Below are positions 1-56,714 of a DNA stretch of 56,714 nt, piece by piece. The position numbers and the translations under genes were made by a program. Source of the DNA: a virus; the IMG/VR virus record IMGVR_UViG_3300045741_000168, positions 1 to 56,714 of that record, one strand, 5' to 3'. The notes beneath the pieces are model-generated. The model made no database searches, had not been told where the DNA came from, and saw only the letters and a list, made by a program, of their open reading frames with translations. The number at the start of each line of letters is the position of its first letter. Position 1 is the stretch's first letter.

Positions 1-187
1 AGTTCGGTGGCTTCCTGGGACTACGAACCACAGATGTGGTCGGCATGGAAGGGATTACAGCCACAGACATGCTGGACTACCAGATGCCGAGAGGTGACGA
101 TTTGTCACGGGTTGGGACCGAGGCTCACTTTCTCGGCCAATATCTGCCCTGGGACTCTAACGAAAACGCCATGATCGCAGCAAGGCA
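1..187. repeat. Terminal redundancy, left copy (matches 56528-56714)
   Basis: Bases 1-187 are the same as 56528-56714 except for position 128 (C) against 56655 (T), which changes CAC to CAT and leaves histidine unchanged. The overlap lies inside one gene that stays open across the join. I take it as an assembly overlap of a circular or circularly permuted genome rather than a physical direct terminal repeat, though the latter is not excluded. Confidence 0.9.
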
Positions 188-500
188 CGGCATGAAACGA
201 AACGCTGGCTATCCGCCTTGTTACGCTAACTGGTGGGATCACGAGAATCTGGACAACGCACAGACCGGGTTACATGACTACTTCATGTTCCGTAAATATG
301 GCTTTGGTCGCGGGTGCCAGCAAATAAGCGTAGACGTGCGATCAGGACTTATAGATAGGGATGTAGCCATGAAGTGGCTGGAGAAGCATGAAGGTGCCTT
401 TCCATTCGTCTACGGCGGCGTTCCGGTAGAGGATGTCTTGGACCGCATCGGAATGAGCCGAGAGCAGTTGGAAAAACTGGCTAATCAGTTCTCGGAATAG
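1..500 (+). CDS. N-acetyl sugar amidotransferase, C-terminal part (gene continues from 55981 across the circle junction)
   Basis: This is the 3-prime part of the gene that starts at 55981. Joining 55981-56527 to 1-500 gives 1047 nt, an intact 348-residue frame, so the gene is broken only by the arbitrary cut of the circle. Family: PP-loop amidotransferases of the WbpG/PseA type, which put an amino/amidino group on N-acetyl sugars of lipopolysaccharide or nonulosonic acids. The part here holds the C-terminal substrate domain (TDMLDYQMPRGDDL, WWDHENLD) and ends at a TAG, 44 nt before the HisF-like partner. The in-frame ATG at 36 is internal, not the start. Confidence 0.85.
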   Translation, partial: FGGFLGLRTTDVVGMEGITATDMLDYQMPRGDDLSRVGTEAHFLGQYLPWDSNENAMIAARHGMKRNAGYPPCYANWWDHENLDNAQTGLHDYFMFRKYGFGRGCQQISVDVRSGLIDRDVAMKWLEKHEGAFPFVYGGVPVEDVLDRIGMSREQLEKLANQFSE

Positions 501-544: not shown

Positions 545-1345
545 ATGCTGGCGAAGCGGATAATCCCCGTCATGCTGGCTCGTGGCAAGAAGCTGGTGAA
601 GGGTGAGGGCTTCAATGGCTGGCGCAATGTCGGCCATGTTCTACAGTCCGCGAAGGTACACGCTGCGCGTGGCGTAGACGAGTTGATGATCCTGGATATT
701 GCTGCCACGAAAGAAAACCGCGGCCCTGATCTGAACGTAATCAGCGAACTGGCAGACGGTTGCTACATACCGATTACGGTTGGAGGAGGCGTCAAGACCG
801 TCCATGACATAGACAGGCTGTTACGCGCAGGCGCAGACAAAGTTGCAATATGCTCTGCCGCATGGGGAGACGATATCATTGCCAGAGCCGCAGATAGATT
901 CGGCTGCCAGGCCATCACAGTCGTCATCGACTACGAATGGATGACCCACGAAGAAGAACCAGACAAATCCTACCCTCTGATAAAAGTCCACAATAACACT
1001 CAAATTGTAAAAAAGCCTATGAACGACGGCTATACTGCAATCAGGGTAACAGAGGCCATCGAGTTGATGCAAGCATTGGGGGCCGGTGAAATCCTCTTGC
1101 AGCACGCCCAGGCAGACGGTACGCTATGTGGGTACGACTGCGAGCTTTTAGAGGCTCTGAGGCCCCTTTTAAGCGTTCCTGTCGTGATAGCCGGTGGCTG
1201 TTCAGGCTACGAGGATATGCACAAAGCTATCAAGGCCGGAGCAGACGGTGTTGCAGCGGGTGCGCTGTACCAGTTCACCGACGCTACGCCCAAGGGGGCC
1301 GCGCAGTATCTGGCTGAGAATGGTGTGAGCGTTCGGCTTCAGTGA
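545..1345 (+). CDS. HisF-like / WbuZ-type glycosyl amidation-associated cyclase subunit
   Basis: 266 residues, a full-length TIM-barrel protein of the imidazole glycerol phosphate synthase HisF family. N-terminal KRIIPVMLARGKKLVKG, central ILDI and TVGGGVKT, and the C-terminal VIAGGCSGYED / DGVAAGALY phosphate-binding segments are the expected blocks in order. Gene 545 follows an N-acetyl sugar amidotransferase, which marks it as the WbuZ/HisF2 partner that channels ammonia to the amidotransferase in surface-sugar pathways rather than as histidine biosynthesis. In bacteria a HisH-type glutaminase completes the trio; none was found in this genome. It is the last gene of the long plus-strand chain. 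The start lacks a visible Shine-Dalgarno sequence. Confidence 0.85.
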   Translation: MLAKRIIPVMLARGKKLVKGEGFNGWRNVGHVLQSAKVHAARGVDELMILDIAATKENRGPDLNVISELADGCYIPITVGGGVKTVHDIDRLLRAGADKVAICSAAWGDDIIARAADRFGCQAITVVIDYEWMTHEEEPDKSYPLIKVHNNTQIVKKPMNDGYTAIRVTEAIELMQALGAGEILLQHAQADGTLCGYDCELLEALRPLLSVPVVIAGGCSGYEDMHKAIKAGADGVAAGALYQFTDATPKGAAQYLAENGVSVRLQ

Positions 1346-1857: not shown

Positions 1858-2072
1858 GTCCTTTTTTTCGGTGTGGTTATTTCCAAGGCTCTGTGAGAGG
1901 TAAATCCTTCTGGGCCGTCGGTGTAAACAGCCTTGATCTGAGCGACGACTGATCTAGTTTTAGTGAGACTGGCCGCATAAACGCAGGCATGGTCGAAGTC
2001 CTCGTCGAACCCTACGAAGTCATTGTCAACTATGACGGCGAACAGATTCAGTAGTTCACGTTCGTTTGCCAT
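1854..2072 (-). CDS. Hypothetical protein, 72 aa, last gene of the PseI operon
   Basis: Small acidic-to-neutral protein with no motif I recognise (begins MANERELLNLFAVIVDNDF, ends in basic PKKRT). It overlaps the end of the HTH gene (2056) and is the distal gene of the minus-strand set 3920-1854. The overlap and shared strand support it as a real gene. The function is unknown. Confidence 0.55.
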   Translation of the reverse strand: MANERELLNLFAVIVDNDFVGFDEDFDHACVYAASLTKTRSVVAQIKAVYTDGPEGFTSHRALEITTPKKRT

Positions 2073-2289
2073 TCTTACGCTCTCGTTCCTCGAACAATGC
2101 TCGCTCTGATTGCCAGAAGTTGAACAATCTGGCGGCTCGCTGATACGTCATCAGATGAATCTTCCCACGCGCTACTTGCGAGAGATAACCTCGGCTAAAA
2201 CCGCACGCCTGCTGGATTTTGTTGATGTTCCAGCCCCACCGTTTCAAGTCCTCGATGATGCTGAAGGCGTCTATCTCAGACGGTATCAT
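2056..2289 (-). CDS. Small helix-turn-helix DNA-binding protein
   Basis: 77 residues if started at the ATG at 2289, whose ATGA overlaps the synthase stop. The segment WNINKIQQACGFSRGYLSQV has the layout of a Cro/repressor-type helix-turn-helix: a helix, a tight turn at GFS, then a recognition helix. A phage regulator is likely. It could control its own operon or the nearby inverted repeats at 1788-1828; that link is an inference from position. A TTG start at 2301 is possible but less likely. Confidence 0.65.
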   Translation of the reverse strand: MIPSEIDAFSIIEDLKRWGWNINKIQQACGFSRGYLSQVARGKIHLMTYQRAARLFNFWQSERALFEERERKNGKRT

Positions 2290-3257
2290 CTTTCGAAACA
2301 ATCTTCAGTAAGTGGTGCTGGAGCAACAATGTCACGGGTAAACGATAGTCCTTCTATCTTATCGAACATCGCTGGGGAAATGCCGAGTGCCGGTCTAGCC
2401 GTGACCACGTTCAAGCCGAATCGTATCTTGTCCCCCTTCGACACGGAGGAACAGACCCACAATGAGCGTCGTAGCTCGGGGGTTTCGCCGGGCTTTGTCC
2501 CAACTTTGGAGCCAAGAGAAGAGGCTGCATCTCGTACAGCTTGAACCATGGAATTGAATTCGGCAGGGTTCAATGCGAATCCGCTATCCGGCCCGCCATC
2601 GGAACGAGACAAGCAAATATGCTTCTCGATCATCACAGCACCGAGAGCCGTAGCTACTACTGGGGCAGTGTTCGACATTGTATGGTCGCTGAGCCCCCAT
2701 TTATAGTCCAACGAGGCAAGGCCCCGCAGGTTCATCGTAGAGGATTCCGCTGGATAGGCTGATGTGCAGGCCAACATTATGGCTTTTGCATCCGCGGCGT
2801 CGTAAGCAGCCGCTATCTCGTCGCAGTTAGCCATCCCTGTGGAGATTATTACTTCATCAGCCTTGCTCGAGGCATATCGAATCAATGGAATATCTACTAA
2901 CTCGAACGAAGCGATTTTGATTCGATATGAACCAAGGTTTATCAGGTAGTTGACTGACGCATTATCGAAGGCAGAACCAAACGGGTCCAGTCCGATGTTT
3001 TTGCAGTGATTGAAGATTATGTCGATGTCGCGCCAACTCAGGAAAGTCTCGCCGTACAAGTCATACAACGAACGCCCTTTCCAAGGCCCACGAGCCACCA
3101 GGTAGCCGCGATCCAGGCACATAGTCCCAGGTGACCAGCATTGAATTTTGAACGCATCAGCGCCCGCTAATTTAGCCGCGTCGGCCAGCTTCAGTGCGTT
3201 CGACAACTTCCCGTTGTGAGACGCCCCAAGTTCTGCGACTATGGTTGGGCTAATCAC
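2286..3257 (-). CDS. pseI: Pseudaminic acid synthase-like (PseI/NeuB family) nonulosonate synthase
   Basis: 323 residues with a GTG start at 3257, overlapping the acetyltransferase gene by 8 nt. The family condenses a 6-carbon diacetamido sugar with phosphoenolpyruvate to give a 9-carbon nonulosonic acid. Visible: N-terminal TIM-barrel strand VAELGASHNG, FKIQCW, PWKGRSLYDLY (typical of the PseI branch), STGM, the metal/PEP-site region LSDHT and IEKHI, the GGPDSGFALNPAEF block, and a C-terminal antifreeze-like SAF domain (RRSLWVCSSVSKGD to LGISP). Length fits the family after a slightly short C-terminus. It is separated from the other Pse genes, which are on the plus strand just across the convergent junction. 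Confidence 0.88.
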   Translation of the reverse strand: MISPTIVAELGASHNGKLSNALKLADAAKLAGADAFKIQCWSPGTMCLDRGYLVARGPWKGRSLYDLYGETFLSWRDIDIIFNHCKNIGLDPFGSAFDNASVNYLINLGSYRIKIASFELVDIPLIRYASSKADEVIISTGMANCDEIAAAYDAADAKAIMLACTSAYPAESSTMNLRGLASLDYKWGLSDHTMSNTAPVVATALGAVMIEKHICLSRSDGGPDSGFALNPAEFNSMVQAVRDAASSLGSKVGTKPGETPELRRSLWVCSSVSKGDKIRFGLNVVTARPALGISPAMFDKIEGLSFTRDIVAPAPLTEDCFER

Positions 3258-3660
3258 GTCGGTATGTGGTCTGGATCAGATCGAAGCCCAACGACTTGAA
3301 TAGAATCCGACTCTTATCGTTTTGTGGCGCAATGTTCGCCAACAACGGGCCAGGATGATCCGAGATCAATTTGGTCAGCGCGGCGCGGGCATATCCCCGA
3401 CCTCGTTCCGCCACTAGCACGGCGATGCCGACTTCGTCCAATTTCGTCAGGTAGCACGTGCCGATCAGGCGACCTTCGACCTTGATTGCGTACCAAAATT
3501 TATACGGGTGCGAGTCGTGGAAAGCCTCGTGCTGTGCAAGCAAGGGCATCTTGCGGTGTGAGATAGACTCGATTGCCTCACGCTCCGACAGTAACTTCCA
3601 TGTCAGGGCGCAGGCAATCGAGCGGTCAACCGTATAAATATCGACCAGTTCGACCGGCAT
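3250..3660 (-). CDS. GNAT-family N-acetyltransferase (possible PseH/LegH role)
   Basis: 136 residues from the ATG at 3660 (a GTG codon lies just upstream). The acetyl-CoA-binding motif A is seen as VAERGRGYARAALTKL, followed by NIAPQNDKSRILFKSLGF, the usual GNAT motif B with the asparagine and GF. The upstream HEAFHDSHPYKFWYAIKVEGRLIG block is typical of sugar-pathway GNATs. Overlap with the synthase gene points to acetylation of the amino-sugar intermediate, the PseH/LegH step. The exact substrate cannot be read from sequence. Confidence 0.75.
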   Translation of the reverse strand: MPVELVDIYTVDRSIACALTWKLLSEREAIESISHRKMPLLAQHEAFHDSHPYKFWYAIKVEGRLIGTCYLTKLDEVGIAVLVAERGRGYARAALTKLISDHPGPLLANIAPQNDKSRILFKSLGFDLIQTTYRRD

Positions 3661-3920
3661 CACTTATGCGGTGCAGGCATCGCTGGAATCTGTTTCACAT
3701 CCCACAGTTTAGCGGCGAAAGCCTTACGCTCGCCCCTAGGTAGATCAACGCCAGATTTACGCAGGCGCGATAACATCGAAGCTACGTTCGTCGCTTTACG
3801 CTCAAGCGCAAGTGCAATCTCAGGTACCTTCGTACCATGTCGATAGAGCTTTACCAACTCATTGACATCGGCCTGAGTCCACGGCTTATAGTCCATATTC
3901 TTACGCGGTTTCTTTTCCAT
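3660..3920 (-). CDS. Small SANT/Myb-like or GcrA-like DNA-binding protein
   Basis: 86 residues, very basic. YKPWTQADVNELVKLYRHGTKVPEIALALERKATNVASMLSRLRK is the tryptophan-led three-helix layout of Myb/SANT-type domains, with the second and third helices resembling a helix-turn-helix. The first gene of the leftward operon, with Shine-Dalgarno AGAGGAA 6 nt before ATG. A transcription regulator is the simplest reading. Its stop codon overlaps the next start (TGATG). Confidence 0.6.
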   Translation of the reverse strand: MEKKPRKNMDYKPWTQADVNELVKLYRHGTKVPEIALALERKATNVASMLSRLRKSGVDLPRGERKAFAAKLWDVKQIPAMPAPHK

Positions 3921-3941
3921 GAAATTCCTCTAGTGGTTAAA

Positions 3942-4069: not shown

Positions 4070-4080
4070 ATCGACCCCCT

Positions 4081-4347
4081 TTATCCTTTGAATCGTTGAA
4101 TTTCGGCCACGTGATCAGTGTAGTAGTCTAGCAGGATCTGTGCTGCCTCTGATTGTTGCTTTAGACGAGGCATGTTTTGTCCTTGGTAATCTGGTGATAA
4201 TGATAGATAAGTCTGTACTGCGCGAAGCATTGTGTAAGGGTCAGGATTCTCGCATCGATCCTTGTAGGAAAAGCCGCACTGTGAGCCATCGCCATCGTTG
4301 ATAATAGTCAGCACGATGTCATTGATTACATGGTTTTGATGGTACAT
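4081..4347 (-). CDS. Hypothetical phage protein, 88 aa
   Basis: No recognised domain. The mid part QCGFSYKDRCENPDPYTMLRAVQTYLS reads like a small globular early phage protein. It lies in the run of short minus-strand genes between the Pse operon and the sliding-clamp-like gene, 11 nt after a small membrane protein. Confidence 0.6.
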   Translation of the reverse strand: MYHQNHVINDIVLTIINDGDGSQCGFSYKDRCENPDPYTMLRAVQTYLSLSPDYQGQNMPRLKQQSEAAQILLDYYTDHVAEIQRFKG

Positions 4348-4358
4348 GTTGCATCCTA

Positions 4359-4520
4359 TCAGTCGTCAAAATACACAGATCGCAGCAGTTCGGCCTGCGC
4401 GCCTTCATAGTCGATGGCGTAAACCACGACTACGCCATCATCGTCACGGATGTCGGTACACCCTGCGCAGTAGCTCACATGCAATTCTGGTGAGTCGTCG
4501 GTGTTGGGTAGAGTAGTCAT
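4359..4520 (-). CDS. Hypothetical protein, 53 aa
   Basis: Starts with ATG overlapping the clamp-like gene stop (ATGA), showing translational coupling. It is an acidic protein with a CAGC pair and two aspartate-rich stretches (TDIRDDDGVVVVY), ending in YFDD. No function can be assigned. Confidence 0.5.
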   Translation of the reverse strand: MTTLPNTDDSPELHVSYCAGCTDIRDDDGVVVVYAIDYEGAQAELLRSVYFDD

Positions 4521-11547: not shown

Positions 11548-12324
11548 ATGAGTTCTCTCGGCAGGGAAAAGAAGTCTGAGCCAACTCAGATACCAGTTCC
11601 CAATCCAGAGTTGAAAATTGCTCTGGTAGGGAGCGCTCCCGCATCCTGTAGAGCTGCCCCGTATCACGACCTAAGCTGGAAGATATGGGGCTGTTCACCG
11701 GGCCTGTATGGGGTTGCCGGACGGGTTGACGAGTGGTTCGAGCTTCACCTGTGGGAACCAGGCCAAACGTGGTTTAGCCCTGAGTATTGCCAATGGATGA
11801 AGAATCTGCCAAGTCATGGGGTAAAACTATGGACGGGCGCTCCAGTATCTGACTTACCGGGAAGCGAGGTTTATCCTGCCGAGGAAATGCTTAATCGGTT
11901 CGATCCGAACAGGTGGTTTTGTTCATCGAGTCTGTTCTGGATGATGGCAAGGGCTATAAGCATCGGAGCCACGAAGATCGGGTTCTGGGGCGTAGATATG
12001 GCAGCCGGTGAAGAGTATCAAATGCAGAGGGCTGGCATTCATTATCTGACATACATAGCCAAGAATCTTGGAATAGAGGTCGGAATTCCACATGAATCTG
12101 ACTTGTTCACGCCACGGTTCCGGTACGGCATCGACGAGTGGACGCACGTATTCAGGAAAACCCGCGCACGCAAGGCAGAGTTGGAAATTCGTGTGAGGGA
12201 TGCCGAAAGTCTCGTTCAGGCCAAGACTAATGAGGTGCATTTTCTCAAGGGCGCATTGGATGATCTGGAATATATGGGTCAGACATGGGTGGACAAAAAG
12301 CCTTATCTTGGTCCGACTAGCTAA
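11548..12324 (+). CDS. Rossmann-like protein reminiscent of Maf/sialyltransferase-fold enzymes (putative)
   Basis: 258 residues. The N-terminal KIALVGSAPASCRAAPYHDLSW has the nucleotide-site glycine pattern seen in GT42 sialyltransferases and DUF115/Maf proteins (G-x-G/A-P-S). Then WGCSPG, RVDEWFELHLWEP, SSLFWMMARAISIGATKIGFWGVDMAAG and EYQMQRAG form a conserved phage family I recall only as hypothetical. The last 60 residues form a coiled helix (RKAELEIRVRDAESLVQAKTNEV). A role in transferring a nonulosonic acid is attractive because this phage makes precursors, but it rests on fold resemblance judged by eye. It sits directly before the large terminase (stop then ATG). Confidence 0.45.
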   Translation: MSSLGREKKSEPTQIPVPNPELKIALVGSAPASCRAAPYHDLSWKIWGCSPGLYGVAGRVDEWFELHLWEPGQTWFSPEYCQWMKNLPSHGVKLWTGAPVSDLPGSEVYPAEEMLNRFDPNRWFCSSSLFWMMARAISIGATKIGFWGVDMAAGEEYQMQRAGIHYLTYIAKNLGIEVGIPHESDLFTPRFRYGIDEWTHVFRKTRARKAELEIRVRDAESLVQAKTNEVHFLKGALDDLEYMGQTWVDKKPYLGPTS

Positions 12325-15039
12325 ATGGATGCTGTAGCAGAACTTCGCGCTCAACTCGCGGCGTTGAATCCGAGAGAGGAGCATAAAGTTTACAAGTCTG
12401 CACTGGAGCAGACAAGTTCCGTAAAGTGGGTTCCAAACCCAGGCCCACAAACGCAGGCTTATCTCTCAGATGCGGATTGTCTGCTATTCGGCGGCGAGCC
12501 AGGCGGAGGCAAGCAAGTTAGTATTCACTCACTTATACCTACGCCTAATGGTTGGACAACGATGGCCGAGATATGTGTCGGGCAGCAGGTAATCGACGAC
12601 ACTGGTAGGCCCTGCATGGTTGTAGCGAAGTCTAATGTTGATTGGACCGAGCAGGCCTATCGCTTAACGTTTTCAGATGGGTCTGTGATCGAGGCGGGTG
12701 CACGGCACCAGTGGGTAACGAGCACCCGTGCAGAGCGGATGCGTGCGCTCAAGTGTAATGACGAATGGCGCGCAGCGCGCCGAGCCAACCGTCCATTGCG
12801 CGGCACCGGCAAGCGACCTGATCTTGCAAAACGCAATGCCGAATCTGCTGTTTCGCAAGACTTGCCAACGTCATCTATCAAAACCACGCAGCAGATATTT
12901 GAAACGCTGAAGCGAGGCGACGGCGGACTAAACCATGCGATCGCAGTTGCTGGGTCGCTCCAACTGCCATGCGCAGAACTGCTGATTGATCCTTACGCGC
13001 TCGGTGCGTGGCTCGGGGATGGAGCATCAAAGTCTGGTCAGATTACAGGGTTAGATGAGGAGATATTCCAGCAGATTGCAAATGGTGGATACGTTGTAAC
13101 GCAACACGCCTGCCCGAAAAGCCGTGGTGTGCTAGGTATTCAAAAGCACCTGAAGCAACTCGGTGTGTTTGGCAACAAACACATTCCACCAGCCTACCTT
13201 CGTGCATCTTTCGATCAGCGTTTGGCTCTCTTACAGGGCCTGATGGACACCGATGGATATTGTGATACTCGTGGTCAGTGCGAGATTCAACTGACGCGCA
13301 AGGAGTTGATCGATGGCGTACACGAACTGCTGTCATCGCTTGGCATCAAGGCCGAGATGCGTGATGGTGACGCTACGCTATACGGGCGCGTGGTCAGCCG
13401 TAAGTGGCGACTGAAGTTCATGACTGAGCTACCCGCATTCAAGCTACCGAGAAAACTGATACGCCAGAAACGCAGCGGCTTTCGCGGTACGCATAGCGTG
13501 CGGTATATCGTTGGCTGTGAGCCGATTGCACCCATTCCGATGCAATGTATTCAGGTAGACAGCCCATCACATTGCTATTTGGTCGGCAAGACAATGATCC
13601 CGACTCATAATAGCCAATTGATACTAGGTTTAGCATTTAATGAACATAAACGTTCACTAATAATGCGGCGTCAGTATGGTGAACTTGACCGTTTAGTCGA
13701 TGATGCTCTCAAGATTCATGGAAGCAGAGAAGGATTCAACGGAAGTCCACCACCAAAGTTAAGAGTCACTGACAAACAGATTATAGAGTTTGCGGCTGCG
13801 CACCGGGTCGGTGATGAGCAGGCACAGATGGGTAAGGGCCGAGATTTGTTGGGAATCGACGAGGCCACTCACTTTGCCGAGCAGCAAGTAAGGTTCCTGA
13901 TGGGATGGAACCGAAGTGAGGACCCGAATCAGCGGGTCAGAACAGTATTGGCGACGAATCCACCTCTATCAGCCGAGGGGCTGTGGGTTTTAAAGATGTT
14001 CGCCCCATGGATCGACCCACAATATCCTAATCCTGCGAAACCAGGAGAGTTGCGTTGGGTTATCAGCGATGATGATGGTAATGATCTTTGGGTGAATGGG
14101 CCAGAAGATATAAGGACTAACTCATCAGGCAAGAAGATCAGGCCGACTTCCAGAACGTATATTCCGTCGAAAGTCTCAGATAACCCATATTACGCAGCCA
14201 GCGATTATGAGAGACAGCTCGATGCAATGCCGGAGCCGTATCGTAGCCTGCTATTAGGCGGCTTCACGACTTCGTTCAAGGACCAGCCGGCGCAGATTAT
14301 CCCGACCAAGTGGGTTCAATTAGCACAAGAACGCTGGACAAAAACCCCGCCGGTCGGGATTCCCATGTGCGTTATAGGAGTAGATGCCAGCGGTGGTGGA
14401 GCGGACCCGATGGTAATGGCCGCACGGCATGATGGCTGGTACGCGCCTCTCGTGGAGATTCAAGGAAAAGACATCCCGATGGAAAATATCGGGCCATACG
14501 GAGCCGGAAGGATTATCTCGCTTCGTCGAGACAATGCCCTTGTAGTGATCGACATGAGCGGTGGCTATGGCGGTTCTATGTACGACCATCTAAGACATAA
14601 CGGTGTCGAGGTTAAATCGTACAAGGGCGCAGAAGCAACACCGAGACGGTCGATAGATGGGAAGCTGAAGTTCGTGAACAAGCGTACAGCAGCCCTGTGG
14701 GGGATGAGGGAAGCTCTTGATCCAGGACAGCCAGGAGGTAGCCCTATCATGTTGCCGCCAGATGCCAAGATCGTAGCGGACTTGACGGCTCCCACGTTCG
14801 AGGTAGTACCAAACGGAATAAAGGCTGAAGCGAAGGAAAAGATTTGCGACCGGCTTGGAAGATCGACAGATGCGGGTGATGCTATTGTGATGTGCTGGTT
14901 CGAGGGCGGAAGAAAGGCGACGAACGTAGTTGACTGGATGGACCTGAAAAAAGGTAAAGGCGGATATTTAGAGAAAATCCCTCAAGTGTTGACCAGTGGT
15001 AGAAAACCATTGACGGCCAATCGTGCGACTCGCCACTAA
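12325..15039 (+). CDS. terL: Terminase large subunit precursor with in-frame intein
   Basis: 904 residues before splicing. Residues 64-429 are an intein; the joined terminase would be 538 residues, normal for the family. The Walker A motif GGEPGGGK-S is completed only after splicing. Walker B is LLGIDEA (D512, E513), the coupling motif ATNPP follows, and the RNase H-like nuclease carries GVDASGGGAD (D687) and VVIDMSGGYGG (D743). The enzyme drives DNA into the prohead with ATP and cuts the concatemer. Start: ATG immediately after the stop of the previous gene. Confidence 0.92.
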   Translation: MDAVAELRAQLAALNPREEHKVYKSALEQTSSVKWVPNPGPQTQAYLSDADCLLFGGEPGGGKQVSIHSLIPTPNGWTTMAEICVGQQVIDDTGRPCMVVAKSNVDWTEQAYRLTFSDGSVIEAGARHQWVTSTRAERMRALKCNDEWRAARRANRPLRGTGKRPDLAKRNAESAVSQDLPTSSIKTTQQIFETLKRGDGGLNHAIAVAGSLQLPCAELLIDPYALGAWLGDGASKSGQITGLDEEIFQQIANGGYVVTQHACPKSRGVLGIQKHLKQLGVFGNKHIPPAYLRASFDQRLALLQGLMDTDGYCDTRGQCEIQLTRKELIDGVHELLSSLGIKAEMRDGDATLYGRVVSRKWRLKFMTELPAFKLPRKLIRQKRSGFRGTHSVRYIVGCEPIAPIPMQCIQVDSPSHCYLVGKTMIPTHNSQLILGLAFNEHKRSLIMRRQYGELDRLVDDALKIHGSREGFNGSPPPKLRVTDKQIIEFAAAHRVGDEQAQMGKGRDLLGIDEATHFAEQQVRFLMGWNRSEDPNQRVRTVLATNPPLSAEGLWVLKMFAPWIDPQYPNPAKPGELRWVISDDDGNDLWVNGPEDIRTNSSGKKIRPTSRTYIPSKVSDNPYYAASDYERQLDAMPEPYRSLLLGGFTTSFKDQPAQIIPTKWVQLAQERWTKTPPVGIPMCVIGVDASGGGADPMVMAARHDGWYAPLVEIQGKDIPMENIGPYGAGRIISLRRDNALVVIDMSGGYGGSMYDHLRHNGVEVKSYKGAEATPRRSIDGKLKFVNKRTAALWGMREALDPGQPGGSPIMLPPDAKIVADLTAPTFEVVPNGIKAEAKEKICDRLGRSTDAGDAIVMCWFEGGRKATNVVDWMDLKKGKGGYLEKIPQVLTSGRKPLTANRATRH
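12514..13611 (+). mobile_element. Class 3 intein with LAGLIDADG endonuclease in the terminase Walker A motif
   Basis: 366 codons inserted between K63 and S430 of the precursor. Block A is SIHSLIPTPNGWTTMAEI; residue 1 is Gln, not Cys or Ser. Block B GARHQW carries W130; block F CIQVDSPSHCYLVG carries C408; block G is PTHN with T427 and N429, followed by Ser+1. The W-C-T set with a non-nucleophilic first residue is the class 3 signature, in which the block F Cys starts splicing. Two LAGLIDADG-type motifs (LGAWLGDGA and LLQGLMDTDGY) mark the homing endonuclease domain. The insertion leaves GGGK/S intact after splicing. Confidence 0.88.
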
Positions 15040-33308: not shown

Positions 33309-33989
33309 ATGGCTCTGACGTATACCAGTTACAAAGATAACGCAGTACATCCGACGACAAATGGTGGAGTTACAACTACATCACACACATATACGTCGGG
33401 TAATCTAGTCACAGTTTGTTATGTTACTGCCGACGGTAATAGCGGTGGCACAACCAGCATATCGAATTCCGGGACGGCGCAAAGTTGGACAAAGCAAAAA
33501 GAAAATGCGACTATAGACGGCACTAATTGCATAGTCACATTGTGGTCTTGCGTGATGAGTGTTACGCAAGCGATGACCATAACTTGTCAGTTATCGGCAT
33601 CGAGTGCGAGCGTTTGCGCATTTGTTATAGAACATTCTGGGCAACATTCTACAACTCCAATACCTGCTGGAAACATATTCCACGGAATTGGTGGGCACAA
33701 TGTAACTCAGAGCATTACCCCTACATCTTCTGGGTCATGCCTTTGGTTCTTTTGCGGTGATTGGTCCGCTACAAATTCGTTCACTCAAATTGCAAACTGC
33801 TCTCAAGAGCAATTAGTCCCTGGTGATGGCACTGATTACAGCACAGAACTTGTCAGACCAACGACGCAGCCAAGAACCGACGCCAATGCTTTCACCATCG
33901 GTGAGAACGAGACCGGTGGTAAGATAGCCTGGATTGCCTTCGAGGTGCAGGCGGCTCCGGCAACAACAATAGCATGGTTGAAAGCATGA
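33309..33989 (+). CDS. Tail-associated beta-sandwich protein, 226 aa
   Basis: Beta-rich with a lectin-like pattern (NLVTVCYVTADGNSGGTTSI, SVCAFVIEHSGQHSTTPI, GKIAWIAFEVQAA). Proteins of this build (WxxxK, VIEHSG, final Trp) are often attached to phage tails as surface-binding domains. One nucleotide after the previous stop. Confidence 0.6.
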   Translation: MALTYTSYKDNAVHPTTNGGVTTTSHTYTSGNLVTVCYVTADGNSGGTTSISNSGTAQSWTKQKENATIDGTNCIVTLWSCVMSVTQAMTITCQLSASSASVCAFVIEHSGQHSTTPIPAGNIFHGIGGHNVTQSITPTSSGSCLWFFCGDWSATNSFTQIANCSQEQLVPGDGTDYSTELVRPTTQPRTDANAFTIGENETGGKIAWIAFEVQAAPATTIAWLKA

Positions 33990-34711
33990 GACCGCAATTC
34001 ATTGCGCCAGATATTGGCAAGCACAACGCAAATTTGGAAGATACTATTGCTCGTGTCAAGGATTCTGCTGCCTGGAAGAAACTGGACACGATTATTCTGA
34101 TACCTGCTGCTGGAACTATCCCGACGAAAGTAGTTGCATCCTGGTGGAATATGTATGCACCACCGAACAATGGCCTGTACCGTATATTCGCCGTAGGTAT
34201 GGAAGTCGGAGAGGCATATTCACAGGCAATAGAGGGAATACTTGCCAACGAGACACTTTCCAAATTCCCATACATATTGACGATGGAGCATGACAATATA
34301 CCTCCGCCAGATGGGTTGGTAAAGTTGCTTCAGAGAATGGAACAGCACCCAGAATATGACTGCATCGGGGGCCTTTATTTTACCAAGGGCGAGTGTGGAG
34401 TACCACAAATCTGGGGTGATCCCAGAGATGTGACGACGAATTTTCGGCCACAGCCCCCGAGAATGGGAGAACTCGTCGAATGTTGCGGAACAGGAATGGG
34501 GTTCAATCTGTGGCGCACGGATATGTTCAAGGATGGTGATCTGAGAAGGCCGTGGTTCAAGACACAAACAGAAGGCGGGGTGGCAACCCAGGACTTGTAC
34601 TTCTGGGGTGATGCAAGAAAGCATGGATACAGATGTGCTGTGGACTGTGCTGTGCCAGTTGGTCATTACGACCATCTTGGTCAATTCGGGATTCCCGACT
34701 ACACGTGGTGA
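33986..34711 (+). CDS. Glycosyltransferase, GT-A fold (putative)
   Basis: 241 residues from ATG 33986, which overlaps the previous stop (ATGA); an in-frame ATG at 33974 is the longer option. Motifs: the nucleotide-binding IILIPAAGTIPTKV, VGEAYSQAIEGIL, the DxD-like TMEHDNIPPPDG (about residue 100), CCGTGMGFNLWRTDMF acceptor-site block and a late GHYDHLG that may coordinate metal. These are features of GT2-like enzymes. Target unknown; the neighbouring fibre genes or the host envelope are candidates. Confidence 0.65.
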   Translation: MRPQFIAPDIGKHNANLEDTIARVKDSAAWKKLDTIILIPAAGTIPTKVVASWWNMYAPPNNGLYRIFAVGMEVGEAYSQAIEGILANETLSKFPYILTMEHDNIPPPDGLVKLLQRMEQHPEYDCIGGLYFTKGECGVPQIWGDPRDVTTNFRPQPPRMGELVECCGTGMGFNLWRTDMFKDGDLRRPWFKTQTEGGVATQDLYFWGDARKHGYRCAVDCAVPVGHYDHLGQFGIPDYTW

Positions 34712-34729
34712 CTTTGATTGGTGAAATAA

Positions 34730-35308
34730 ATGGCAAAAGGTAATGTAGTCAGAGCATATGTTGTTCCGCAAGGGGAGGCGCAACCTGCTCCATTGCTGAA
34801 GCTCGACATTGGTTGTGGCAAGACAACCCCTGAAGGATGGGAAGGCATAGACGCCATCGACTTTGGTCAGAAACACGTCCATGATATTCGTAAAGGGCTG
34901 CCTTGGATCAAGGACAGCACGGTGGATGAGATCCGGTCAAGCCATTTCGTGGAACATCTTGACTGGCCGGAACGAGTCGATCTGTTCAATGAGCTATACC
35001 GAGTGATGAAGCCAAAGGCAACGGCGCAGATCATCACCCCACATTGGAGCCATTCTTGTTTCTACGGCGATCCTACTCACAAGGCACCACTGAGCGAATG
35101 GTATCCGTACTATTTGCTCAAGTCTTGGCGGGATGTGAATGCGCCACATGCCGGTTATATCTGTGACTTCGACCACGTGGTGGCCGGGTCATGGGATCAG
35201 AGTATCGAAGCCAGGAATCCAGAGACAAAAAGTGTCATGATGAACAAGAACATCAATTCCTGGCGCGATCTCATCATCACTTTGACATCACGGAAACCTG
35301 CTGGTTAA
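34730..35308 (+). CDS. Class I SAM-dependent methyltransferase
   Basis: 192 residues. LLKLDIGCGKTTPEGWEGID is motif I of the SAM-binding Rossmann fold; VDEIRSSHFVEHL and ELYRVMKPKATAQIITPH are motifs of the methyltransf_11 kind. It directly follows the glycosyltransferase and is probably co-translated. The pair suggests methylation of a transferred sugar or of a sugar donor. Confidence 0.8.
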   Translation: MAKGNVVRAYVVPQGEAQPAPLLKLDIGCGKTTPEGWEGIDAIDFGQKHVHDIRKGLPWIKDSTVDEIRSSHFVEHLDWPERVDLFNELYRVMKPKATAQIITPHWSHSCFYGDPTHKAPLSEWYPYYLLKSWRDVNAPHAGYICDFDHVVAGSWDQSIEARNPETKSVMMNKNINSWRDLIITLTSRKPAG

Positions 35309-44925: not shown

Positions 44926-45071
44926 ATGATGGCAAAGATCACAGCCTGCCGCGCTCGTCTGTAGTCTGGTGTTCTGACGCTTTCAGGGCGAGTATCCATC
45001 TCTTCACGGACTGCCCGGAGTAACCTTAATATCTTCTCGTCGTGCTGTTCGGATGCAGATTTGTTCACCAT
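44889..45071 (-). CDS. Hypothetical helical protein, 60 aa
   Basis: MVNKSASEQHDEKILRLLRAVREEMDTRP and RRARQAVIFAIMWMQ are amphipathic helices. It overlaps genes on both sides (ATGGTGA with the PEP-CTERM gene). Unknown. Confidence 0.5.
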   Translation of the reverse strand: MVNKSASEQHDEKILRLLRAVREEMDTRPESVRTPDYRRARQAVIFAIMWMQSDIRGPGR

Positions 45072-45661
45072 TTCGTTTTCCTCTTCGCCAATCCAATCAA
45101 ACTAAGCCCAGCAGCAATCAGTTGCAGGGTTGGCGGCTCAGGCACTGGCGGCGGTGTGGACACGACAAGCTGATCCAAGGTGTTCTGTGTTCCGACAAAC
45201 AGGCTCAGTCCAGCGCCATAGGCCTCGTACCACGAGCCGCTAAGTTGATACCAATCGAAGGCCTGGGGTATGGGTGACTGCCCAGGCATCGCAAGTCCAG
45301 AATCGGATGCACTGGAAAACACCACGGTGTAGAGGCCAGGAGGCAGCCACAGACTGTCCGCGATGCCGAACCATCCGCGCTGAAACGGCGGGATGTATGT
45401 GCTGGCCTGATAGATCAGAGAACCTGAGCCTGGAAATTCGGTGTAAATCGAGACCGTCAGATCGGCCCAGTTCTCCGAGTCGAAGTAACCATCGATATTG
45501 GTGATTGTTTCGGCCTCACCCATGCCGAACGACACTCCAAGGCTTTGCTGCCAATTCACAGAATAGAGCGCGCCATATGGATTGCTGCCGGTGTTGACCA
45601 GAGTGTTGGCTGATGCGACAGCCGCGATTGAGAGTAAGAGCGTCGCGAGTAATCGTTTCAT
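45065..45661 (-). CDS. Secreted protein with PEP-CTERM sorting signal
   Basis: 198 residues from ATG 45661. Residues 1-19 (MKRLLATLLLSIAAVASA) are a classical signal peptide. The body is a beta-rich exported domain (about 20-165, DGYFDSENWADLTVSIYTEF, WLPPGLYTVVFSSASD). The C-terminus has the full tripartite PEP-CTERM signal: VPEPPTL (173-179), hydrophobic LIAAGLSLIGLA (181-192) and a basic tail KRKTKW. Host exosortase would recognise it. ATGA overlap with a small membrane protein gene. Such proteins are rarely expected in phages and the gene may be acquired from the host. Confidence 0.88.
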   Translation of the reverse strand: MKRLLATLLLSIAAVASANTLVNTGSNPYGALYSVNWQQSLGVSFGMGEAETITNIDGYFDSENWADLTVSIYTEFPGSGSLIYQASTYIPPFQRGWFGIADSLWLPPGLYTVVFSSASDSGLAMPGQSPIPQAFDWYQLSGSWYEAYGAGLSLFVGTQNTLDQLVVSTPPPVPEPPTLQLIAAGLSLIGLAKRKTKW

Positions 45662-45792
45662 ACCAACCACCACACCAGCAGCGCAGTCCATGCCACCGAA
45701 AACAAGATCAGCCATATCCATATCCGGCGTTGTGCCTGAGCGTCGCGCAGAGCTTCCTCCATCAACCATTGGTTTTCTTCATCGTCTGTCAT
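45658..45792 (-). CDS. Small membrane protein, 44 aa, coupled to the PEP-CTERM gene
   Basis: MTDDEENQWLMEEALRDAQA is acidic and polar, then one transmembrane helix rich in Trp (WIWLILFSVAWTALLVWWLV) ends the protein. Start and stop overlap its neighbours by 4 nt on both sides (ATGA). The type resembles small phage inner-membrane proteins. Confidence 0.65.
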   Translation of the reverse strand: MTDDEENQWLMEEALRDAQAQRRIWIWLILFSVAWTALLVWWLV

Positions 45793-52564: not shown

Positions 52565-52988
52565 ACCGTGGCTTAGTTTCACTGTTCCTGGTGTTGCAGT
52601 TGCAAAGGGCCGAGCGCGAGTGGTCAAGGGCCACGCTTATACGCCTGAGAAAACAAAGACCTATGGCGATACTGTTGGCTGGATCGCCAGGGATGCGATG
52701 GGTAAGATCGGGCGGCAGCTTACTTTGGAGCCTGTTTATGTCGAGATCGACATTGGAGTTCCAATTCCAAAAGGCTTTGGAGTAAAACGCCGTGCGGCGG
52801 CTCTGTCTGGGGAGTTACATCCCACGCAGAAGCCTGACCTGGATAACATCATCAAATCGATCTATGACTCGATGAACAAGATCGCGTACAAGGATGATGC
52901 CCAGATCGTCAAAACGCTCGTAAAGAAGATATACGCTCCTGAACCATATGCGGAAGTGCGTGTATGGCGCATGATTGATCTAGTATGA
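52557..52988 (+). CDS. rusA: RusA-family Holliday junction resolvase
   Basis: 143 residues from ATG 52557. FTVPGVAVAKGRARVV at the N-terminus, and HPTQKPDLDNIIKSIYDSMN / YKDDAQIV carry the metal-binding aspartates of RusA (D in KPDLDN and in DDAQIV). It resolves branched recombination intermediates before packaging. Its stop overlaps the PseB-like start. Confidence 0.92.
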   Translation: MIKPWLSFTVPGVAVAKGRARVVKGHAYTPEKTKTYGDTVGWIARDAMGKIGRQLTLEPVYVEIDIGVPIPKGFGVKRRAAALSGELHPTQKPDLDNIIKSIYDSMNKIAYKDDAQIVKTLVKKIYAPEPYAEVRVWRMIDLV

Positions 52989-53833
52989 AGTCTGTTCTCG
53001 TAACAGGTGGCGCGGGGTTCTGGGGGTTTGGATTTGCCAGGGCCGCTCTGGACTTGCAGTGTGTTCAGCGAATCTGTATCTATAGCCGAGGTGAACACGC
53101 ACAGCATTTAATGCGACAACATCTTGGTAATAATCCATTGCTGCGATTCTTTATCGGGGATGTGCGGGATAAAGACAGGCTGCTCAGGGCCATGCACGAG
53201 GTCGATGTGGTGGTTCATGCAGCGGCGCTGAAGAGGGTGGAGGTGGGAGAGTACGACTCAGGTGAGATAGCCAAGACCAATGTTGGTGGGACACAATTTG
53301 TTATCGAAGCTGCTCAGGAAACTGGAGTACGAAAATGTGTGCTCATCAGTAGCGACAAGGCTTGTGAGCCAAGGAACTGCTACGGAGCGTCGAAGTTAAT
53401 GGCTGAGAAGCTGTTTCTGTCGGCCAATAACTCTCGCGGCCAAACTGGTCCGATATTTTCTGTCGTGAGATATGGAAATGTGGCCGGCAGCACAGGATCG
53501 GTAATCCCCACATGGTCACGTGAGCATGAGCAAGGCCGTCCAGTAAGACTTACTCACCCCGACGCCACACGATTCTGGATGACTCGTAAAGAGGCTGTAG
53601 GCTTGGTGATGCGGACAATCGACACGATGAAAGGTGGAGAACTGGTAATTCCAGAGCTACCGGCGTACAGATTGGCTGATTTGGCTACAGCAATGGGAGT
53701 GGAATATAACGTTCATGGACTGAATCCGGGAGAGAAAATGCACGAGTCGATGAAACATGGCGAGACAAGTAACGATGCGAGACGCATGACAATCAGCGAG
53801 ATTCGTGAACAACTGAAGGTGATTTATGCTTAG
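52985..53833 (+). CDS. pseB: NAD-dependent epimerase/dehydratase, PseB-like (UDP-GlcNAc 4,6-dehydratase type)
   Basis: 282 residues, shorter than bacterial PseB (about 330). Rossmann motif TGGAGFWG at 7-14; D60 acidic in FIGDVRD; ISSDKACEPRNCYGASK with S122/S123-D124-K125 and the Y133-x3-K137 catalytic pair. GDVRDKDRL, HAAALKRVEVGEYD and RFWMTRKEAVGLVM place it in the CapD/PseB inverting dehydratase clan. This would make the first 4-keto intermediate of pseudaminic acid. The start overlaps the RusA stop (ATGA). Confidence 0.8.
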   Translation: MKSVLVTGGAGFWGFGFARAALDLQCVQRICIYSRGEHAQHLMRQHLGNNPLLRFFIGDVRDKDRLLRAMHEVDVVVHAAALKRVEVGEYDSGEIAKTNVGGTQFVIEAAQETGVRKCVLISSDKACEPRNCYGASKLMAEKLFLSANNSRGQTGPIFSVVRYGNVAGSTGSVIPTWSREHEQGRPVRLTHPDATRFWMTRKEAVGLVMRTIDTMKGGELVIPELPAYRLADLATAMGVEYNVHGLNPGEKMHESMKHGETSNDARRMTISEIREQLKVIYA

Positions 53834-54437
53834 TCCGTTTTGCGTGGTAAAAGATTTCGAGCGCAATCTATGTGAATATACAGGTGCTAAATATGCTGTT
53901 ACCACCACTAGCTGCACACAGGCTATATTGATGGCGTGTGCATATTGGCGGTATAAAGATAAGTCATATGTATGTAAGATGCCAAGACTATCTTATGTTG
54001 GCGTTCCAGCAAGTATTTGTAATGCTGGACATGCAGTCGAATTCAGGAGTGAAAATTGGCAAGGGGAATATGAGATTTTCCCGTTACCGGTCTGGGACAG
54101 CGCGCGCCGGTTCACATCCGATATGTTCAGGCCAGGCCTGATGCAATGCGTAAGTTTTCACGTGAGCAAAATCCTGGGAGATACTCAAGGAGGCGCGATT
54201 CTGCATGATAACGACGAAGCAGATCAGTGGCTAAGACGAGCTAGATTCGATGGCCGCACAGAAGGAGTTGATCCAAAGAACGACCAGGTTCAATATCCGT
54301 CGTGGCACGCTTATATGAGTCCAGATGTTGCAGCTAGGTTGAACTGGAAGTTATCTGTTCTACCAAAGCATAATGCCGATCTACCCAGGAGTGATTACCC
54401 TGATCTGAGTACGTTGAAGGCGTTCCAGAATGACTGA
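53826..54437 (+). CDS. Miniature DegT-family aminotransferase (PseC-like)
   Basis: 203 residues, against about 380 for the family. Seen: the N-terminal EYTGAKYAVTTTSCTQAILMA, the PLP-pyridine Asp D91 in PVWDSAR, and K115 in VSFHVSKILGDTQGGAILHD (the S-F-H-x-x-K Schiff-base lysine and GG). The usual C-terminal small domain is absent, and the protein ends after about 80 more residues. It could transaminate the 4-keto sugar as PseC does, or be a minimal form that needs a partner. Coupled by overlap to its neighbours. Confidence 0.72.
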   Translation: MLSPFCVVKDFERNLCEYTGAKYAVTTTSCTQAILMACAYWRYKDKSYVCKMPRLSYVGVPASICNAGHAVEFRSENWQGEYEIFPLPVWDSARRFTSDMFRPGLMQCVSFHVSKILGDTQGGAILHDNDEADQWLRRARFDGRTEGVDPKNDQVQYPSWHAYMSPDVAARLNWKLSVLPKHNADLPRSDYPDLSTLKAFQND

Positions 54438-54804
54438 GCTTGATCGTCAAATCCGCACCGACATACAGATGCAGGTAGTTGCCCGTGAAAAGGAGATTCA
54501 TCTTCTGTTCAGCGAAGTGTCTGGCGACAAAATGATTCCAGCCTATACCAGTAACTTCCTGCTCAGTGCCTCGGATGCGCTTGCACTCAGCACTTTGCTG
54601 GCGGACTTGGCATATGAAATAGAAACGACTCTGAAGCCGGTTGGGAGCGCGCTCAAGGCTGAACTGATTGAGAAGCACAGGATCAAGATCACCAAGCGAA
54701 TTGAGTTGATGCTCAACAGCACCAGATTCAAAAAGACCGTCTCGAACAGCGTGTTAGCCAAGAAGATGACGGATGTCTCACTGAAAGATGTATTCGATCT
54801 ATGA
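54430..54804 (+). CDS. Hypothetical helical protein in the Pse operon, 124 aa
   Basis: Mostly alpha-helical (LLSASDALALSTLLADLAYEIETTLKPVG and LIEKHRIKITKRIELML). No motif known to me. The overlap with both neighbours suggests it is part of the same unit. One thought is that it supplies a function missing from the short aminotransferase or the absent PseG, but nothing in its sequence shows this. Confidence 0.5.
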   Translation: MTELDRQIRTDIQMQVVAREKEIHLLFSEVSGDKMIPAYTSNFLLSASDALALSTLLADLAYEIETTLKPVGSALKAELIEKHRIKITKRIELMLNSTRFKKTVSNSVLAKKMTDVSLKDVFDL

Positions 54805-55400
54805 ATGTTGTAGCAATAATCCCTGCGCGTGGCGGGAGTAAAAGGGTTCCACGCAAAAACGTAAGCCAGTTCCGTGGCCATCCTATGATCTGGTACGCCA
54901 TTCGTGCTGCTCAGGCCGCAAACATTTTCACGAGCATCATTGTTTCGACTGACGACCAGATGATTGCTGATGTGGCAAATTCATATGGCGCAGTAGTCTC
55001 AATGCGCGAGCCTGATGACGGCGTCAGAGGTACACAGGAACTCACAGCAGAGGTTCTGAGGGCGTGCTCCATCGATACTGGACTGGCGTGCTGTATTTAT
55101 CCTTGCGTTCCGATGTTACTGGCGACTGATCTTATCTCAGCGCATCACGAACTGGTAGATGAACATCACGATTACGTTATGTCTATAGATCGGTCTGGAG
55201 CTGACATCGGTATGTTCTATTTCGGCCATGTGGAATGCTTCCTGAAGGACGTTCCTCTGCATGGGGCTGGCACCGCTTACCAAGTGATACCAGACGAGAG
55301 GGCTATCGACATAAATACCCAGGAGGACTGGAAAAGGGCCGAACATATGTACGACTCATTTCTGCATAATCTGATGCTTGACATGAGGGGCCATGTATGA
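54801..55400 (+). CDS. pseF: CMP-nonulosonic acid cytidylyltransferase (PseF/NeuA-like)
   Basis: 199 residues, a little shorter than PseF (about 230). IIPARGGSKRVPRKNVSQF is the signature CTP-binding loop; HPMIWYAIRAAQAANIF, IIVSTDD and AYQVIPDERAIDINTQEDW (late family block) follow in order. It activates the nonulosonic acid to the CMP form for transfer. The stop overlaps the next start. Confidence 0.85.
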   Translation: MNVVAIIPARGGSKRVPRKNVSQFRGHPMIWYAIRAAQAANIFTSIIVSTDDQMIADVANSYGAVVSMREPDDGVRGTQELTAEVLRACSIDTGLACCIYPCVPMLLATDLISAHHELVDEHHDYVMSIDRSGADIGMFYFGHVECFLKDVPLHGAGTAYQVIPDERAIDINTQEDWKRAEHMYDSFLHNLMLDMRGHV

Positions 55401-55984
55401 GCAACACTGAAGGGTTCTGGAGCGGTGAATTCGGAGACGACTACCACAAGCGCAATCGTGTCGATTACCGGGACCGTTTACCGTTCTGGCAATCTGCTGT
55501 CCAGTACACAGAGCCGAGAAGCGTGCTGGAGATCGGTTGCGGTCCAGGCTGGAATCTTCTGGCTCTGAGAGAGGTGCAACCGACGCTCGATCTATACGGT
55601 ATAGAGATCAACGAAGGTGCGGTAGCAGAGGCACGTAGCAATAACCTGAAGGTCGATCATGGGACCTTCGACACCGCCAAAGCAATGTACGAACCTGGAG
55701 CCGTCGATCTTGTGTTCACCAGCGGGGTGCTGATCCACGTTGCGCCGGATGATCTTGATCGCTGCATGAACGCGATGATCGAGATAAGTGGACGATATGT
55801 CATGGCTATCGAGTACGACGCTGACCGGGAAGTTCCCCGTGTTTACAGAGGCCACGATGACAAGCTATGGGCCAGGCCATACGGCAAGCTCCTGGAGAAG
55901 AAGGGGCTGAAACTGTTGTCTGAAGGCATGGCAGGTGGCTGGGAAAGTGCGACCTATTACTTACTGGAGAAGGCACAAACATGA
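55397..55984 (+). CDS. Pseudaminic acid biosynthesis-associated methylase
   Basis: 195 residues. EGFWSGEFGDDYHKRNRVDY at the start and VLEIGCGPGWNLLAL, DLVFTSGVLIHVAPDDL, RYVMAIEYDAD, VYRGHDDKLWARPYG in order fit the Pse-associated class I methyltransferase family well. It would add a methyl group to the sugar or its acyl substituent. Confidence 0.85.
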   Translation: MSNTEGFWSGEFGDDYHKRNRVDYRDRLPFWQSAVQYTEPRSVLEIGCGPGWNLLALREVQPTLDLYGIEINEGAVAEARSNNLKVDHGTFDTAKAMYEPGAVDLVFTSGVLIHVAPDDLDRCMNAMIEISGRYVMAIEYDADREVPRVYRGHDDKLWARPYGKLLEKKGLKLLSEGMAGGWESATYYLLEKAQT

Positions 55985-56714
55985 TTCGTTGTAAAACATG
56001 CGTGCTTCCTGATTCCAGACCCGACACTCCTTTCATAGATGGTGAGTGCTCGGCCTGTATCAGCTACCGCAAGCGGCCAATAATAGATTGGGACGAGCGC
56101 AAGCGGCAGCTGCTGGCTTTGCTGGGCCGACACGGATTCAGGTGTATTGTTCCAAGTTCCGGCGGTAAGGACTCTACAGCGCAGGTCATAAAACTTCAGG
56201 AGTTGGGGTGTGATGTAACGGTTGTGACTGCTAGGACATGTCAACTTACATCGGTCGGCAGAGAAAACATCGACAATTTGGCGCGGTACGCCAGGACAAT
56301 CGAGGTCGTACCAAATATGACTGTCAGGGCAAAGCTCAATCGACTTGGGCTTGAACTGGTTGGGGATATATCGTGGCCTGAACATTCTGCAATCTTCACC
56401 ACGCCATTCAAGATGTCAGTGGCATTGGGCATCCCGCTTCTGTGGTACGGAGAAAACCCGCAGAACCAGTACGGCGGCCCTATGGGAAGCGAAGAAGCGA
56501 TGCAGATGACCCAACGCTGGGTCAGTGAGTTCGGTGGCTTCCTGGGACTACGAACCACAGATGTGGTCGGCATGGAAGGGATTACAGCCACAGACATGCT
56601 GGACTACCAGATGCCGAGAGGTGACGATTTGTCACGGGTTGGGACCGAGGCTCATTTTCTCGGCCAATATCTGCCCTGGGACTCTAACGAAAACGCCATG
56701 ATCGCAGCAAGGCA
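55981..56714 (+). CDS. N-acetyl sugar amidotransferase, N-terminal part (continues at 1-500)
   Basis: Start of the gene whose end is at 1-500 (full protein 348 aa). CKTC (C4, C7) and CSAC (C23, C26) form a zinc site; VPSSGGKDSTAQ (S60-G-G-K-D-S65) is the ATP PP-loop. IPLLWYGENPQNQYGGP and WVSEFGGFLGL are family blocks. It converts a sugar N-acetyl group to an acetamidino group or related product in the WbpG/PseA manner, using ammonia supplied through the HisF-like partner. The bases from 56528 on repeat 1-187. Confidence 0.9.
   Translation, partial: MIRCKTCVLPDSRPDTPFIDGECSACISYRKRPIIDWDERKRQLLALLGRHGFRCIVPSSGGKDSTAQVIKLQELGCDVTVVTARTCQLTSVGRENIDNLARYARTIEVVPNMTVRAKLNRLGLELVGDISWPEHSAIFTTPFKMSVALGIPLLWYGENPQNQYGGPMGSEEAMQMTQRWVSEFGGFLGLRTTDVVGMEGITATDMLDYQMPRGDDLSRVGTEAHFLGQYLPWDSNENAMIAAR
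56528..56714. repeat. Terminal redundancy, right copy
   Basis: Repeat of bases 1-187 with one synonymous change (T at 56655 against C at 128). The unit genome would therefore be 56,527 bp. Confidence 0.9.

Follow-up and report, generated by a model that had tools for sequence, protein, structure and literature searches.

The virus record IMGVR_UViG_3300045741_000168 of IMG/VR, analysed here as one stretch of 56,714 nucleotides (the window), carries a cassette of genes whose predicted products resemble the enzymes of pseudaminic acid (Pse) biosynthesis. On the plus strand the cassette comprises a PseB-like NAD-dependent UDP-GlcNAc 4,6-dehydratase/5-epimerase (52985..53833, 282 aa), a half-size DegT/PseC-like sugar aminotransferase that lacks the C-terminal domain (53826..54437, 203 aa), a 124-aa protein (54430..54804), a PseF-like CMP-nonulosonate cytidylyltransferase (54801..55400, 199 aa), an accessory Pse-associated S-adenosylmethionine-dependent methylase (55397..55984, 195 aa), a WbuX/PseA-type N-acetyl sugar amidotransferase that starts at 55981, and a WbuZ/HisF2-type synthase subunit (545..1345, 266 aa). 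The minus strand holds a PseI/NeuB-like nonulosonate synthase with a SAF domain (2286..3257, 323 aa), a GNAT acetyltransferase (3250..3663, 137 aa; PF00583) and a small helix-turn-helix-like protein (2056..2301) whose gene follows neuB in relatives. The gnat gene adjoins neuB in relatives too, and the inverted orientation of this pair in the window compared with other phages is a local rearrangement. All genes named in a preliminary description of this DNA were recovered in place as open reading frames (ORFs) with matching family profiles; the 124-aa ORF between the PseC- and PseF-like genes, which relatives keep, had been omitted there. The same description had the genes overlapping by 4 nt from 49507 onward; the actual overlaps are 4–20 nt, with gaps before 52283 and before the HisF-like gene at 545.

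The first 187 bases of the window are repeated at its end (1–187 and 56528–56714, one mismatch), indicating that the genome is complete or circularly permuted. Because of this terminal redundancy the WbuX-like gene, inside which the two ends overlap, is split into an N-terminal part (55981..56714, plus strand) and a C-terminal part (1..500, plus strand) that share the repeat; its full course, 55981–56527 followed by 1–500, encodes 348 aa.

Profiles of the PseB, PseC, PseF, PseI, TIGR03587, TIGR03573 and TIGR03572 families all found their counterparts in the cassette, and the methylase was the sole enzyme to pass a curated cut-off (TIGR03587, 132.1 bits against 112.05); its gene is missing from the related records G006 and G008. 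The PseB-like protein scored 303.9 bits with TIGR03589 (E 1e-90; cut-off 407.75), 250 bits ahead of the LegB profile (E 1.5e-13), and its best match in the PDB was the Helicobacter pylori UDP-GlcNAc C6 dehydratase (2gn4, E 1e-64). The PseI-like protein reached 277 bits with TIGR03586 (E 2e-82; cut-off 340.25) compared with 203 for the NeuB model, with pseudaminic acid synthase 8h2c as its best PDB match (E 3e-68), while the PseF-like protein scored 164 bits with TIGR03584 (E 3e-48; next family 60, cut-off 205.7) and matched NeuA (9ftb, E 1e-43) in the PDB. TIGR03573, whose cut-off of 203.2 is set for the full-length protein, gave 150.9 and 70 bits for the two halves of the window WbuX and 193.3 bits for the full-length homologue on the viral contig L003, the best PDB match of which was the N-acetyl sugar amidotransferase 8wex; the WbuZ-like protein scored 195 bits with TIGR03572 (E 9e-58). 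Since the enzymes other than the methylase, WbuX being scored here in two halves, fall below their curated cut-offs, we refer to them as Pse-type and not as certified orthologues.

Catalytic motifs were conserved throughout the homologues collected. The (S/T)DK...YxxxK motif was present in 15 of 16 PseB-like copies and the EKH and SAF RPxxG motifs in 14 of 15 PseI-like copies, the remaining copy being a fragment in each case, and the SGGKDS PP-loop and CxxC pairs were found in all 16 WbuX-like copies. The catalytic Asp11 of imidazole glycerol phosphate synthase is replaced by Leu in every HisF-like copy (15/15), so that this barrel fits an acetamidino HisF2 and not histidine synthesis.

At 203 aa the aminotransferase is little more than half the usual length of about 380 aa, and TIGR03588 aligned with residues 7–73 only (38.8 bits, E 5e-10; cut-off 423.5). 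Its best PDB match was nevertheless H. pylori PseC (2fn6), and an AlphaFold2 model (predicted local distance difference test score, pLDDT, 82; predicted template modelling score 0.84) found sugar aminotransferases including PseC as best matches in Foldseek, covering slightly over half of the target. The Asp and the SFHxxK Lys that serve the pyridoxal phosphate (PLP) cofactor were invariant in 18 of 18 copies. Distant DegT relatives of this short size are encoded by Flavobacterium phage immuto, Synechococcus phage S-SCSM2R and two huge phages; immuto and S-SCSM2R are annotated, and both have the gene beside glycosyltransferases. Because the PLP residues are invariant, a sugar-aminotransferase fold is predicted and short relatives exist in other phages, the half-size form appears to be a phage enzyme type and not a broken gene. 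These half-size DegT genes of unrelated phages lie on L156 (8986–9630), L157 (8998–9585), L158 and L159.

Two proteins of the bacterial systems have no gene in the cassette. As the preliminary description had noticed, PseG is missing: TIGR03590 was unmatched in the window and six relatives, and no GATase/HisH (PF00117) was found in the same set, the positive controls of both searches being detected. HisH was found only in the distant phage contigs L345 and L346, which carry divergent cassettes (L346 also with a full-length PseC) that possibly represent the ancestral state of the shortened one. None of eight homologues of the 137-aa GNAT matched a PseH profile, their matches being to the GNAT fold only; the assignment as PseH by profile was dropped, and the protein is PseH-like by position only. 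The 124-aa protein, with homologues in 14 contigs, is conserved in the core clade and absent from many distant cassettes; its model (pLDDT 73) had no fold match in the PDB, and it was rejected as the missing PseG or HisH on both counts. The short aminotransferase and the absence of PseG and HisH would be expected of a degenerate or moonlighting cassette that makes no sugar. We regard this as very improbable, as open frames and catalytic residues are kept in 15–18 divergent copies, the overlapping gene order is conserved, and distant half-size DegT genes lie beside glycosyltransferases in other phages.

The family scores and solved structures favour Pse over legionaminic (Leg) or neuraminic (Neu) types of sugar, given the PseB-type model far above LegB, the PseI model above NeuB and the best PDB matches, which for three enzymes (2gn4, 2fn6 and 8h2c) are proteins of the Pse pathway. 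Among 299 Pseudomonadota genomes a WbuX search returned three genes 43–47% identical to the phage WbuX, the others being mostly 34% identical or less, and in a WbuX tree the phage copies formed one clade (100/100) that was sister to these three (98/95). Two of the three (loci L181 and L182) have HisH, HisF, an SpsF-like cytidylyltransferase and PseC as neighbours, PseC scoring 531–533 bits and thus above its cut-off; in L182 the neighbours also include PseI (484 bits, above cut-off). The third locus has a HisH-like ORF. These relationships support a Pse-type, acetamidino product, whose exact structure we can only propose. A different product, either a nonulosonate of the legionaminic type or an acetamidino hexuronic sugar of the WbpG type, could account for scores that stay under the equivalog cut-offs and for a PseF-like enzyme whose best PDB match is called NeuA. 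We consider it improbable, as the PseB, PseC, PseF and PseI profiles all outscore their Leg and Neu alternatives, the sister bacterial WbuX genes adjoin PseC and PseI, and the presence of a NeuB-type synthase and a CMP-transferase excludes a plain UDP-hexose. The route to a methylated, amidated CMP-nonulosonate that had been read from the genes is thus well supported by families, solved-structure matches, catalytic motifs, synteny and nearest bacterial homologues.

The cassette recurs in other phages with its gene order kept and 40–74% protein identity, and so is not a chance assemblage. A WbuX profile search returned 54 viral contigs, and the 25 loci flanked by 4.5 kb or more on each side all had pseB and hisF, followed by the methylase gene and neuB (24/25 each), degT and gnat (23/25 each), the cytidylyltransferase gene (19/25) and the 124-aa gene (14/25). 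A DegT profile search returned 76 contigs, and in 27 of the 32 well-flanked ones five or more of the other seven cassette genes were present. A separate DegT search gave seven further viral contigs, besides L003, that have the same operon. The searches place the cassette in more than 70 uncultured viral contigs in all. Single-sequence NeuB searches of viral contigs returned nothing or one locus because the pattern search is narrow, and alignments were needed. No close relatives were found among cultured phages; in a set of 50,697 phage records WbuX was unmatched, and for the rest of the enzymes tested there were distant matches only. Homing-endonuclease-like ORFs (GIY-YIG and HNH, judged by eye) lie between cassette genes in L023 (2330–2707), L028/G007, G012 and G018. 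The pseB-degT-cmpT-mt part of the cassette was also seen on L004, a low-coverage contig that is probably phage; it was binned with a Thiobacillaceae metagenome-assembled genome, which is only a weak host clue.

Comparison of complete genomes shows where the cassette belongs. A search with the major capsid protein (MCP; 20116–20952) returned 78 related contigs, and all nine terminally repeated records with a capsid at least 77% identical (window included; GC content 50–66%) had all seven core enzymes, two of them being without the methylase. Records with a capsid of at most 48% identity (G016, G020 and G021) were without the cassette, these being fragments, and a restriction of the cassette to phages with an MCP at least 77% identical was dropped because the cassette is also present in contigs with a far more distant MCP. 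All eight other complete genomes contain the virion module, which starts at the terminase large subunit gene terL (12325..15039, plus strand) and includes the portal (16069–17727), together with the cassette enzymes and a 258-aa gene upstream of terL; the 124-aa gene was found in seven by BLAST, the eighth copy being visible by eye. Each of the early genes of the window occurs in at most three of the eight, leaving the cassette as the sole conserved module besides the virion genes in these nine genomes. Ten of 12 genomes have the cassette on the strand of terL, a few kb upstream of that gene. The preliminary description had joined the pathway to the replication operon, a link that we reject because the early genes upstream of it are not conserved in relatives; the cassette stands instead upstream of the terminase and virion module. 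Just 5′ of it are recombination and modification genes (an adenine-methylase-like ORF, NinB, an HNH-like ORF and RusA), and no replication protein was identified among them.

The 258-aa protein encoded directly upstream of terL (11548..12324, plus strand) is a candidate for the missing sugar transferase, of GT42/Maf-like type. Besides the complete genomes, its gene was present in 23 of the 25 well-flanked WbuX loci. Homologues also lie inside rearranged cassettes in L346 (order pseB-degT-mt-GTlike-cmpT-wbuX-HisH-hisF, with a full-length DegT), L351 and L323, those in L351 and L323 being remote, and the gene stands after the MCP gene and before pseB in L332, L335, L336, L337 and L349. In L344 the place that the 258-aa protein has in the window clade is occupied by a genuine Maf-type protein (3033–4379, E 2e-19), just upstream of terS/terL and downstream of wbuX-hisF. 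Maf proteins have been proposed as transferases of CMP-Pse onto flagellin (PMC3426422). A profile of 93 homologues of the 258-aa protein, compared by hhalign with GT42 sequences gathered in this study, gave an E-value of 7.7e-4 over 152 colinear columns, against 0.012 or worse for 13 controls and 0.65 for the reversed profile, a suggestive indication that GT42 sialyltransferases are its closest, if weak, relatives. Maf and GT42 are a known remote pair, for which the same kind of comparison gave 9e-5. When a GT42 profile was run against 16,779 ORFs, eight of the ten best matches belonged to the 258-aa family, each of them weak and several from near-identical contigs. A weak GT2-like protein of the tail module (33974..34711, plus strand; PF00535 E 0.005, phrog_12406 E 4e-4) was rejected as a general transferase because it is absent from the relatives tested; together with a methyltransferase-like gene it makes up 33974–35308 within the tail-fibre module.

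The established route leads from UDP-GlcNAc to CMP-Pse through PseB, PseC, PseH, PseG, PseI and PseF, and a PseA-type enzyme introduces the acetamidino group. By analogy, the PseB-like enzyme of the phage would dehydrate and epimerise UDP-GlcNAc, the half-size PseC-like enzyme would aminate the dehydrated sugar and the GNAT would N-acetylate it. As PseG is missing, removal of UDP is assigned outside the known cassette enzymes, to the host or another enzyme. The PseI-like enzyme would then condense the sugar with phosphoenolpyruvate, and the PseF-like enzyme would activate the nonulosonate with cytidine triphosphate. The WbuX-like amidotransferase is predicted to turn one N-acetyl into an acetamidino group, the WbuZ/HisF-like barrel handling ammonia that comes from the host's HisH or from free ammonium, and the methylase may act on the product as well. 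Finally, the GT42/Maf-like protein encoded next to terL would move the sugar onto virion proteins of the phage. The pathway part of this proposal is well supported, building on gene identity, conserved catalytic motifs, synteny and co-conservation with virion genes; which enzyme removes UDP, that the 258-aa protein transfers the sugar and that virions are its target are proposals, as is the exact sugar. The whole, a near-complete Pse-type pathway in a phage with its product placed on virion proteins by a GT42/Maf-like protein, seems to us about equally likely to be right or wrong.

Several observations weigh against it. PseG and HisH are absent, PseH is unproven and, save for the methylase, the enzymes score below their cut-offs. 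The 258-aa protein has no Pfam, NCBIfam or PDB match, PF06002 and PF01973 included; its GT42 match is weak (HHalign probability 25%, with 7.7e-4 set against 0.012 for the best control), and the widest alignment gave 0.0018 to GT42 compared with 0.0049 for a methylase control. The GT-like gene was not seen in 10 of the 27 cassette-rich DegT loci, some of which end before its expected place. A Mantel test on the pairwise distances of cassette alleles and virion alleles showed only a weak correlation (r 0.31, p 0.024), and strict allele co-inheritance with the virion genes was dropped as the genes recombine one by one. Distances among the virion genes themselves are also weakly correlated, so cassette and virion parts recombine while their presence is kept.

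The main rival is that the same sugar is put on the host surface (lipopolysaccharide, capsule or flagellin) by host transferases, where it masks receptors or blocks superinfection. Prophage genes are known to alter Pse in the Acinetobacter capsule (PMC12053666). The lack of PseG and HisH implies that the host must contribute, and in a sample of 150 Pseudomonadota genomes 46 encoded Maf-type proteins (PF01973). We judge this rival to be unlikely, though well ahead of the others, since such a role would be expected more in a variable early or moron region, and the cassette stays with the virion genes across genomes of 50–66% GC while early genes turn over, accompanied by the transferase candidate. 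A sugar or amidine destined for phage DNA or nucleotides, and not for protein or a surface glycan, would be in keeping with the general occurrence of PP-loop amidotransferases and sugar transferases in phage DNA modification. It is the least probable explanation: we noticed none of the genes for base hypermodification in the window, and each pathway member has a homologue in nonulosonate pathways. Among the purposes offered earlier, virion glycosylation, receptor masking and surface remodelling, the first is preferred, though unproven, in view of the conserved association with virion genes and of the gene for a candidate transferase. The position of the cassette beside virion genes suggests that these phages coat their own particles with a self-made sugar.

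Other features of the window lie apart from the cassette. The terminase large subunit is 904 aa long and contains a LAGLIDADG/Hom_end segment; it carries an intein, as relatives of about 540 aa match residues 2–63 and 429–900 only. A free-standing LAGLIDADG-type endonuclease ORF (19301–20125) runs directly into the major capsid gene, whose start it overlaps. On the minus strand, 45065–45769 encodes a predicted protein ending in a PEP-CTERM sorting motif above the Pfam cut-off, which is unusual for a phage and a possible host hint.

Taken at its widest, our reading is of a widespread uncultured podovirus lineage that makes its own acetamidino-pseudaminate-type sugar with miniaturised enzymes, attaches it with its own new GT42/Maf-like transferase encoded beside the terminase and so has sugar-coated virions, a picture that we hold slightly more tentatively than the proposal for the pathway and its target. 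If true, these phages would wear a sialic-acid-like coat from a near-complete pathway of their own, a sialylation-like system that a virus applies to its own particle, and the coat pathway would, like the capsid and tail genes, be core genome across hosts that differ greatly in base composition. They would offer a model of what virion glycans do (in receptor choice, as decoys or for stability), a family of half-size PLP aminotransferases and possibly a new family of CMP-sugar transferases, in a gene set compact enough for reconstitution in E. coli.

The chemistry, phage tailoring of host Pse and virion glycosylation are each already known. In the open-access literature we came across no phage-encoded nonulosonate pathway described as a core viral module, a negative that does not prove absence. 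Prophage EpaA/EpaB and phage O-acetyltransferases act on Acinetobacter Pse (PMC12053666, PMC6586298); like the cassette they concern Pse-type sugars, but they tailor host-made capsule Pse without making it. In mycobacteriophages, phage-encoded transferases glycosylate virion protein (PMC11256854; Freeman 2023, as cited in PMC12691614), and these accounts describe no nonulosonate synthesis encoded by the phage. The sugar clusters of Flavobacterium phage immuto and Synechococcus phage S-SCSM2R share the half-size DegT beside glycosyltransferases, with no NeuB-, WbuX- or HisF-like match in the two regions read. With the bacterial CMP-pseudaminic acid pathway (H. pylori, Campylobacter jejuni and Aeromonas caviae flm; PMC3426422) the phage has the PseB, PseC, PseI and PseF-type steps in common, and acetamidino Pse is known in C. 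jejuni; the phage version is shortened, without PseG, with a half-size PseC and an unproven PseH, and lies beside virion genes. The nearest homologues of the phage WbuX and HisF are in the bacterial WbuX-HisH-HisF acetamidino modules next to PseC/PseI (L181 and L182), which keep HisH and a full-length PseC, both lost from the phage core clade and both present in the phage contig L346.

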